64,000 nt of DNA from Halosegnis rubeus. Lineage in GTDB: Archaea > Halobacteriota > Halobacteria > Halobacteriales > Haloarculaceae. Location: contig NZ_QJOW01000003.1 of assembly GCF_009184545.1 (NCBI RefSeq), forward strand, positions 263,481 to 327,480. Reading direction: 5' to 3'. Position 1 is the stretch's first letter. The number at the start of each line of letters is the position of its first letter. The notes under the pieces were generated by a model, which did not search any database, had not been told where the DNA came from, and was given only the letters and a program-made list of their open reading frames with translations. The position numbers were made by a program, and so were the translations under genes. Positions 29,064 through 62,428 of the stretch are shown one piece after another.

Positions 29064-29232
29064 GCCGGCGACTTCTCTCCGTTTTCCTCTGGCCGGTGAG
29101 TCGCGACGCTCTGGCGGGGCTCCGACTGCTTTGTCTCTTTTCCGGGTGTGACCAGCCTCGGTGTCTCGGCTGTGTCACCTGGTGGGTTTAGCCCCGTAGC
29201 TGATGCCAACTCGAAAGCCGGACGCGTCGCTT

Positions 29233-29534
29233 GCTGGCTACCCTGTTACTTCTGGCTTGAAAGCCCTGGACGTGTCGCGGTCTTGCCGTGACATATCGGT
29301 CATTCGCGTTGCTTGACCAGGCAACCGAGGCGGTGGCCTACCGCACCGCGAACAGAGTGAGCGGGTGCGGTTCGGGGAAGGGTTGGGAGAGCGGCCGGAG
29401 GCCGCGGGCCAGCGAGCGGGAGCGAAGCGACATGCGAGCGCGCGGTGCGGATGCTGTATCCGGAGCCAAGCAACGAGAGTGGTCGCGGGACTGTCGGAGG
29501 TAAAATAAACACCGCGGTGCTGTTTTCCGAGACT
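29233..29534 (+). repeat. Dispersed intergenic repeat, copy A (long form)
   Basis: Lies in the 613-base gap between rpl10e and thpR, which holds no gene. Shared blocks: 29233-29265 (29/33 identical to copy D), 29286-29307 (19/22 with B), 29321-29350 (30/30 with C), 29365-29386 (19/22 with C), 29452-29479 (25/28 with B), 29463-29485 (22/23 with D), 29508-29522 (14/15 with C). Hairpins: 29340-29371 (ACCGCACCGC with GCGGGTGCGGT, one bulge) and 29391-29405 (GCGGCC-gga-GGCCGC). The tail block GAG-AAGCAACGAGAG recurs at 29529. Could be a structured RNA or a MITE-like element. Confidence 0.7.
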
Positions 29535-29676
29535 AAGCAACGAGAGCGATGTTGTGCTGGTGAACGCATCTCAAACAGCACGAAACGGGACCGTCGAACG
29601 AGCACAAGCGACAACCACACTAACCGAAACGCTACACACGGCCGACACCTATGGCCGGTGAGTTCCAAGCGGGGGT

Positions 29677-36516: not shown

Positions 36517-36577
36517 ACTCCGATTTTCTAACTCGTTTGCCGTTCGCTCGCCTCGACCGTTCTCTTGTTGTGAGCAG

Positions 36578-36757
36578 CTTGTAATCCCCGGACGTGGCGG
36601 GGTCTCGCCGGCGGGTACACCGCCGGCTGCCCGGGAGCGCGTCGCTTTCCCACTGTCTCCGTGACGTATCGGTCGCTCGCTGCGCTCGTTCCGGATAGTG
36701 GTCACGGAGCCGACCACGCGAGCGTGCAGTGCTGTCTCCGGAGCCGAGCAACGACAG
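36578..36757 (+). repeat. Dispersed intergenic repeat, copy B
   Basis: Lies in the 286-base gap between srp54 and the next gene. Shared with copy A: 36578-36605 (23/28), 36659-36680 (19/22) and 36730-36757 (25/28), in the same order and strand. It lacks the 30-base block of copies A and C but has its own perfect hairpin GCCGGCGG-gtaca-CCGCCGGC (36607-36627). No coding potential. Confidence 0.6.
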
Positions 36758-36802
36758 TTACACCACCCAAACCGATTAGCGAGCAGCGAGCGAACACGAA
36801 TC

Positions 36803-55052: not shown

Positions 55053-55164
55053 TGTCTTCGTTGGGGTGTTGAACGGCAAAAGGGCTACGTCCACTGTACG
55101 ACGTTCCGAGATATGGGGACTATCTGTGTTGTTCGGACGGCTCTGATTTCGACTGCTCTGACTG

Positions 55165-55634
55165 CTCTGTTGTGAACAGCCGGAAAGTCCCGACCGAGTA
55201 AACGCGACACACCCGTCTGGGCACGACGCGCAGCGTCGTGCTGACCCTGAAGTCTGCCGTGGCAGCCTTCAGGACTCCGTTCAGTCCACCCGAACCGCCC
55301 ACACGCCTCCCCAACCGATTCGCTCCCTACGGTCGCCCATCCGCTGTCAGCGCGAGCGCCGACACGCCGTCGCTCGGTGGTCTCGCGACGACCTCACGCT
55401 GGCTCGCGCGACAAGCGCGCTCGGGCCATGCCACCGCACCGCGTCGCTCGATTGAGCAACCGAGGCGGTGGCCTACCGCACCGCGCCTCTGGCGCGTGTG
55501 CGGTGTGGGGAAAGGTTGGTGCGGTCCATCGCGCCCTCGTGGCGCGACGCGACCGCTGCGGTCGCGGTGCGGTTTCCCCGATGCCAAGCTATCAGGGTGG
55601 TGCTGTCGAATTCAGGCCAAACAGCGCGGTGCTG
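55165..55634 (+). repeat. Dispersed intergenic repeat, copy C (long form)
   Basis: Fills most of the 607-base gap between uvrC and the TPR gene, which holds no gene. Shared with copy A, in order: 55456-55485 (30/30), 55498-55519 (19/22) and 55620-55634 (14/15). Hairpins: 55475-55504 (13-bp stem around tct with one bulged T) and 55549-55565 (GCGACCG-ctg-CGGTCGC). Both occur at the same place as the hairpins of copy A but with different arm sequences. Further upstream lie two more strong stems at 55221-55272. Both flanking genes run on the minus strand. Confidence 0.7.
55221..55272 (+). other. Two consecutive perfect or near-perfect hairpins
   Basis: GCACGACGC-gca-GCGTCGTGC (55221-55241) and CTGAAG-t-CTGCC-gt-GGCAG-c-CTTCAG (55247-55272) stand five bases apart. 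Could be a bidirectional terminator between the two minus-strand operons or part of a structured RNA. Confidence 0.5.
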
Positions 55635-55659
55635 GTCGGTATACTAATCCGACCCACCG

Positions 55660-62276: not shown

Positions 62277-62323
62277 GACTGATTCTCGATTATTCTCTGG
62301 TGCTCCGTCCGTCCCCGGCAATA

Positions 62324-62407
62324 CGACCACGCTCGTTGCTTGGCTCAGGAGAAACCGCACCGTGACACGGCCGTGGCTTTCAGGCCGGTAGTAACAGAGT
62401 AGCCAGC
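62324..62407 (-). repeat. Dispersed intergenic repeat, copy D (short form)
   Basis: On the minus strand, 62407-62375 matches the 5' block of copy A (29/33) and 62346-62324 matches its 3' block (22/23), but the roughly 150-base middle with the large hairpins is missing. Lies in the 152-base gap between the threonine synthase-like gene and tiaS. Also contains the palindrome CACGGCCGTG. Confidence 0.65.
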
Positions 62408-62428
62408 CTACGCAAAATCGGCTCCACA

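Follow-up and report, generated by a model that had tools for sequence, protein, structure and literature searches.

Structured repeats dispersed through the genome are familiar from bacteria and have seldom been described in archaea. Integron attC sites vary in sequence, are conserved in structure and are used as folded single strands. REP/BIME elements (REPINs), found with RAYT/TnpA-REP, are intergenic stem-loops in inverted pairs with a variable linker and a strand-specific fold (PMC8266576), and a REP is defined as a palindrome of 20-50 nt preceded by GTAG (PMC8266576). A survey of REPs includes an archaeal set that holds no haloarchaeon (PMC12306157). The PATEs of Haloquadratum walsbyi are non-coding, are built of palindromic modules, occur in many copies and become ends-only by loss of the core (PMC3119063). 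Among DNA structures, AGCGA-quadruplexes (PMC5442326) and GNA/GNNA mini-hairpins (PMC4686876) were described in vitro with synthetic or human DNA, the latter together with a GNA/GNNA loop rule for extraordinarily stable DNA mini-hairpins (PMC4686876).

The window analysed in this study, the whole stretch of 64,000 nucleotides from Halosegnis rubeus, contains four gaps that are members of a large, haloarchaea-specific, modular and non-coding intergenic repeat family. The family is apparently undescribed so far, in agreement with an earlier note on this DNA, which knew of no named family. In the whole window only two tRNAs reached the gathering threshold of Rfam release 15, and six long loci searched at a relaxed threshold gave only tRNAs and chance-level matches. 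No description of the family was found in the literature searched, from which subscription journals were mostly absent, so that an earlier description there is possible.

Repeat copies in the window and in other genomes

The four gaps (29064-29676, 36517-36802, 55053-55659 and 62277-62428) contain no called gene and hold the copies A, B, C and D, respectively. Copy A has ribosomal protein L16/L10e on one side and a LigT-like protein on the other, copy B is flanked by SRP54 and an unassigned protein, copy C by a TPR protein and a UvrC-like protein, and copy D by a PLP-dependent enzyme and TiaS. The earlier note had described these gaps as gene-free and as sharing blocks of sequence; both points hold, and a pairwise check reproduced the block matches exactly (30/30, 29/33, 22/23 and 25/28). 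The blocks also occur beyond the four places. BLASTN with copy A as query gave 36 non-self matches (37 with self) in more than 25 places of the same genome, with a best non-self E-value of 4.6e-53, and a full-length copy as query gave 49 matches. These match counts and E-values exclude chance, and the genome holds more than 25 intergenic sites of the modular family, its copies having been collected by BLAST and pattern searches.

Long copies in this genome showed a constant order of modules: left units, D1, optional plain hairpins, D2, D3, tail and right end. Left units have the sequence GAAAGCCCCGGRCGTGTCGC and at times stand in tandem about 55 nt apart. D1 is closed by TGAAAG..CTTTCA and GGGCGTGTCGC..GCGACACGCCC and has the inner stem CCGTGAC-A-TATCGG..CCGATA-GTG-GTCACGG. 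The plus-strand limits of D2 are CCTCCCCARCCGAYTC and GCCACCGCA, the tail carries GCGAGCGGGAGCGAAGCGACACGCGAGC and the right end is GCCAAGCAACGAGAGTGGTCG. The window copies are mostly shortened members of the family. Copy C has all modules, with D1 as a remnant, and is the only window copy with D2, while copies A (left units, truncated D1, D3, tail and right end), B (D1 and right end) and D (ends alone) are shortened forms.

The features of copy A lie on the plus strand. Two tandem left units (GAAAGCC..GGAC.CGTGTCGC-like) make up its left end (29210..29299), and the truncated D1 consists of the 5' arm CCGTGACATATCGG (29286-29299) without the 3' arm. Module D3 (29321..29390) holds the 30-base block and then GGGGAAGGGTTGG. 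The tail (29391..29448) contains the hairpins GCGGCC-GGA-GGCCGC and GCGAGCGGGAGCGAAGCGACATGCGAGC, and a 28-nt core of it is found again, exactly, in other genera; the right end (GAGCCAAGCAACGAGAGTGGTCG) spans 29455..29552, with a second right-end unit at about 29530-29552. Copy B (36581..36760, plus strand) consists of D1 followed by the right end (36730-36760), without D2 or D3. Its D1 has two optional hairpins, GCCGGCGGG..ACCGCCGGC and GGGAGCGCG..CGCTTTCCC, and the inner stem CCGTGACGTATCGG..CGGATAGTGGTCACGG (36659-36707). On the plus strand of copy C, the D1 remnant (55182..55291) has two optional hairpins (ACGACGCGCAGCGTCGT and CTGAAGTCTGCCGTGGCAGCCTTCAG) and closes at CGTTCAGTCCACCC; the anchor 20-mer lies at 55306-55325, D3 with the 30-base block at 55456..55523, and the tail hairpins, including GCGACCGCTGCGGTCGC (55549-55565), together with the right end (55573-55603) at 55531..55603. 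Module D2 of this copy (about 55300..55440) is folded on the minus strand. Copy D (62324..62407, minus strand) is a left unit fused directly to a right end. Just upstream of the window, at about 261.2-261.5 kb of contig C8, a D3-tail element (L005/L129) lies between apparent tRNA genes.

Comparison of orthologous sites revealed turnover of modules. The related genome G004 has copies with differing module sets at sites orthologous to those of the window, copy B being orthologous to its locus L093, and its counterpart of copy A is an ends-only copy. The form of copy D, which the earlier note had described as keeping both ends without the middle, thus recurs in the G004 orthologue of copy A, and it was also found at loci L112, L113 and L270. 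In ends-only copies GTCGCGGT is common to both flanks of the lost core, which suggests loss of the core by deletion between short direct repeats. A gap between divergent genes in the genus of another relative, G136, holds the repeat with different arms in five species and a remnant in one, and the repeat is absent in five; the flanks are too diverged for the exact insertion junction to be read. This distribution fits either old copies with compensatory change and occasional loss, or repeated insertion. The V2 arms of these orthologues (GGCGCGGC/GCCGCGCC against GGCGCGACC/GGTCGCGCC) appear to favour old copies with compensatory change over repeated insertion.

Modules were also observed alone or in other contexts. 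Loci L080 and L083, from other genera, contain D1 without D2, with different stems and the same inner loop, and the modules therefore have separate histories. Left units GAAAGCCC..GCGCTCGC precede D1 in tandem, with a spacing of about 50-60 nt resembling an iteron array, at L107 (reverse strand), L159 and L284. A lone tail hairpin GCGAGCGGGAGCGAAGCGACACGCGAGC lies just 3' of a stop codon in two species of genus g2 (L087 and L088, about 1490-1535); the gene 5' of it is the same in both and is aspartyl-tRNA-synthetase-like by eye. At L097 (G003:C1, about 1412300-1412615) a 17-nt tandem array of GGCTACTGTTCCGGTCC, with about 20 units, directly adjoins a D2 copy.

D2 is the module that is conserved best and spreads furthest among genera. 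Its anchor 20-mer CCTCCCCARCCGAYTCGCTC was found, with at most one mismatch, in 126 of the 293 genomes of the order and in up to 82 copies per genome in this search; the backward control pattern gave zero matches in the same 293 genomes. The highest per-genome count, 129 anchor sites, was found for G136. BLASTN detected D2-like copies also in genomes without the 20-mer, so that 126 is a lower bound. An exact scan for CCTCCCCARCCGAYTCGCTC covered 84,980 species genomes and gave at least 80 loci, all from Halobacteria among the matches listed. Outside the order, the D2 structural pattern was absent from all genomes of the phylum that were sampled. No repeat match came from the phage records and viral contigs searched, and haloarchaeal plasmids carry a few copies.

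Structure and covariation of D2 and D3

On the minus strand (the reverse complement of CCTCCCCARCCGAYTC), D2 has three structural parts: the outer stem, the hairpin V2 of variable sequence and the helix V1, a G.A zipper. The minus-strand consensus is TGCGGTGGCGCGCGCT-[V2]-GYGCGAGGGATGA-GC-GA-[V1]-GA-GC-GAATCGGCTGGGGAGG; it is about 110 nt long and begins with TGCGGTGGC. The links GCGAGGGATGA and GAATCGGCTGGGGAGG are purine-rich and nearly invariant across many genera. In V1 two Watson-Crick pairs alternate with tandem G·A, and the helix is usually capped by a C(GNA)G loop; in copy C the zipper reads GC-GA-CC-(GTA)-GG-GA-GC (55322-55336, minus strand). Of the distinct 15-nt versions of V1, 40/40 have the inner G·A steps, and the two inner steps of the distinct 23-nt versions occur in 41/42 and 42/42; the search pattern itself fixes the outermost tandem G·A, which was excluded from the evidence. 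The Watson-Crick pairs between the G·A steps vary as GC, CG and AT with pairing kept, and the top mutual-information pairs of V1 are exactly the symmetric ones. V1 loops are mostly GNA (30/40 of the 15-nt and 26/42 of the 23-nt versions); they are closed by C-G in 64 cases, by T-A in 11 and by G-C in one. The arms of V2 are fully variable, and its end often has the same G·A step with a GNNA tetraloop. At L108 (reverse strand, about 610-760) a D2 copy has V1 enlarged by several extra hairpins with unrelated arms.

Covariation in D2 is decisive. In an alignment of 40 rows, 96.3% of cells were paired, compared with 80.6% after shuffling and at most 45% when slid by 1-3 columns. Double-changed cells numbered 116 against 33 in shuffled rows, the shuffling taking no account of the kinship of copies, and 13 of the 21 pairs had double changes. 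Selection on structure rather than sequence, as proposed in the earlier note, is thus borne out by covariation far above both the shuffled and the slid controls. The folding energy of D2 alone is no better than that of shuffles (MFE z-score near zero), and the structural case therefore rests on covariation and not on stability; a full-length element has an MFE z-score of -5.3.

For D3, the stem reads ACC..GGT in 11 copies and GAC..GTC in nine, with zero mixed ACC/GTC or GAC/GGT combinations. The hairpins reported for copies A and C in the earlier note are present. Their outer arms (ACCGCAC/GTGCGGT) are identical in the two copies and not different as it had stated; covariation of this stem is seen with more copies and not between A and C alone. 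The inner part of copy A at 29349-29363 does pair, not by plain pairing but by Watson-Crick dinucleotides with tandem G.A between them (GC-GA-AC-AGA-GT-GA-GC, plus strand). This zipper forms the tip of a predicted plus-strand three-way junction (29321..29390) made of CAACC/GGTTG, AGGC/GCCT and ACCGCACC..GGTGCGGT. Given this predicted junction with its zipper, D3 appears to be a reduced partner of D2 in inverse orientation. G-rich runs end both the D2 minus strand (GGCTGGGGAGG..GTGG) and the D3 plus strand (GGGGAAGGGTTGG), and these ends might fold into a quadruplex of two tiers when potassium is high.

Genomic setting and nature of the folded strand

No called gene contains any of the 180 distinct D2 copies. 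Analysis of the flanking genes of 163 copies revealed 47 convergent, 31 divergent and 85 tandem arrangements, and the 3' end of the gene pointed toward D2 on the right in 90/163 and on the left in 89/163, that is, without strand bias. G·A zippers were 66 times denser between genes than within them, a descriptive figure, since the set of 80 loci was chosen for D2. In G136 all 20 close pairs among 100 of the 129 anchor sites are inverted, 167-311 bp apart. The opposite arrangement was seen at L161 and L166. Among the G136 sites listed, single copies show no grouping by orientation along the chromosome (p = 0.57 and 0.10), which gives no support for a replication-strand role; an early hint of orientation domains disappeared with the fuller site list. 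D2 as an intrinsic or archaeal terminator was also rejected: it has no U-run or AT-rich stretch and no orientation rule, and 31/163 copies lie between divergent genes.

Wobble pairs are strand-polar. On the minus strand, G·U against A·C is 18:4 in V1, 5:2 for the outer Y/R pair and 33:14 in V2 under neutral scoring, used instead of strict scoring, which penalises wobble and is biased (2 GT, 5 AC). The outer stem of D2 has 45 G·U and zero mismatches in 240 cells. The excess of G·U over A·C identifies the minus strand as the functional strand of D2. D2 as a plus-strand RNA gene was rejected since G·A and G·U lie on the minus strand, and D2 as a perfect duplex cruciform was rejected since TC/TC on the plus strand is unable to pair.

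We prefer, with a probability of roughly 0.6, to read the family as haloarchaea-specific modular intergenic repeats with a REP/BIME-like role, conserved as a folded single strand. This reading draws on what was observed: the structure and its polarity by strand, the placement between genes, the inverted pairs, and orthologous sites at which copies differ or are missing. Hairpins keep pairing on one strand while their letters change, and it follows that selection preserves a folded single strand. The D2 minus strand folds into the outer stem, the V2 hairpin and the V1 G.A zipper, joined by GCGAGGGATGA and GAATCGGCTGGGGAGG. A host protein may recognise this fold by its invariant links and its G.A ladder, which would leave the arm sequences free to drift with pairing kept, and inverted pairs would set one folded unit on each strand. 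Copies would persist at orthologous places while optional hairpins are gained and lost, and deletion of the core between copies of GTCGCGGT would produce ends-only copies. That the family constitutes a new functional nucleic-acid class, a clade-wide multi-copy folded single strand (possibly single-stranded DNA) with a Watson-Crick/tandem sheared G.A ladder, read by a dedicated haloarchaeal protein, is put forward tentatively, at odds below even.

Whether the folded D2 strand is single-stranded DNA or RNA stands at about equal odds, and each possibility, taken by itself, has roughly one chance in three. As single-stranded DNA, the minus strand would fold during replication, repair or transfer, and a DNA enzyme specific for its structure would bind or cut it, as happens with attC sites or IS200/IS605 ends. 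The D2 loops C(GNA)G and C(GNNA)G, with their free middle bases and the strong preference for a closing C-G pair in V1, follow the DNA mini-hairpin rule (PMC4686876) and not the RNA GNRA rule, and AGCGA-rich DNA forms G-A/G-C folds (PMC5442326). The frequent G.U in the outer stem, poorly tolerated by DNA, argues against this possibility, as do the unclustered orientation of D2 along the chromosome and the genomes rich in the repeat in which Y1 transposase is missing (12/30). As RNA, the D2 minus strand and the D3 plus strand would belong to small non-coding RNA genes or transcript structures. Strand-polar wobble points this way and is what RNA would naturally show: its level in D2 is close to that of tRNAs, whose stems in the same loci contain 6.3% G·U. 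The standard RNA model also predicts the V1 zipper on the minus strand, and the tail hairpin just 3' of a stop codon at L087 and L088, in another genus, is consistent with a transcript structure. Against RNA, no promoter-like AT peak was found on either side of D2, a result that together with the missing orientation rule fits DNA; the V2 tetraloops are mostly GNYA and not GNRA (pyrimidine as third base in 13/20); and the lack of orientation bias toward flanking genes, with about one-fifth of copies between divergent genes, speaks against a role as read-through RNA.

A non-autonomous mobile element (MITE or PATE) that depends for its movement on an IS200/IS605-type Y1 transposase is unlikely. 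Y1 transposases underlie the mobility of both REP and IS605/PATE elements. The palindromic modules, the many copies and the ends-only forms resembling PATE core deletions (PMC3119063) suit such an element, as do the orthologous site that has or lacks the repeat within one genus and the two Y1 genes of this genome. Among the 30 repeat-rich genomes, picked by copy number of the anchor 20-mer, 12 had no Y1_Tnp (PF01797) match, however, and in a BLASTN comparison with all fetched loci the two IS605-like loci of this genome matched no part of the repeat. An exact insertion junction was not seen, and the arms differ strongly between copies of one genome. The MITE option of the earlier note is therefore disfavoured, since the distribution of the family follows that of no candidate transposase and a clean empty site was not seen. 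The copies are not decayed remnants of a gene or insertion sequence either, given the absence of D2 from called genes and the dissimilar IS605 loci. Functionless palindromes kept complementary by template switching or gene conversion at the DNA level are very improbable: plain hairpin modules are indeed exchanged freely between copies and V2 arms are nearly all Watson-Crick under strict scoring, but such correction would convert G.A to Watson-Crick pairs, G.U exceeds A.C on one strand only and the links hardly vary among many genera, so that the invariant G.A positions contradict it for D2, while for the optional hairpins it is possible.

Comparison with known systems

The repeat spans many genera of an order that includes genetically tractable species, fills much of some intergenic gaps and provides strong candidate annotations for haloarchaeal intergenic sequence. 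It conserves an unusual helix in which normal and G·A pairs alternate. Use of the fold would require a protein that reads it, and this protein can be sought and found by way of the nearly invariant links. A fold made of single-stranded DNA would be a rare example, outside mobile elements, of chromosomal DNA that is conserved in folded single-stranded form.

The repeat is REP/BIME-like in outline and lacks two defining REP features. Like REP/BIME it is multi-copy and extragenic (0/180 in genes, up to 129 sites per genome) and occurs in inverse pairs (20/20 close pairs, 100 of the 129 G136 sites). Unlike REP/BIME it has no GTAG-led palindrome of 20-50 nt, D2 being about 110 nt or more and starting with TGCGGTGGC; full elements are 400-650 nt long, modular, archaeal and equipped with G.A zippers, and Y1/HUH transposase (PF01797) is missing in 12/30 repeat-rich genomes. 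With PATEs it shares the haloarchaeal host, the non-coding nature, palindromic modules, many copies and ends-only forms. It differs from PATEs, which have IS605-like ends and were compared by description only, in its dissimilarity to the two IS605 loci of its own genome and in reaching high copy number without Y1. Like attC it varies in sequence and is conserved in structure, although no integrase or cassette array was seen with it. With AGCGA-quadruplexes and mini-hairpins it has in common the alternation of G-C and G-A pairs and the C(GNA)G and C(GNNA)G loops; since the Watson-Crick pairs between the G.A steps covary, it is the hairpin that is conserved and not a fixed AGCGA quadruplex.
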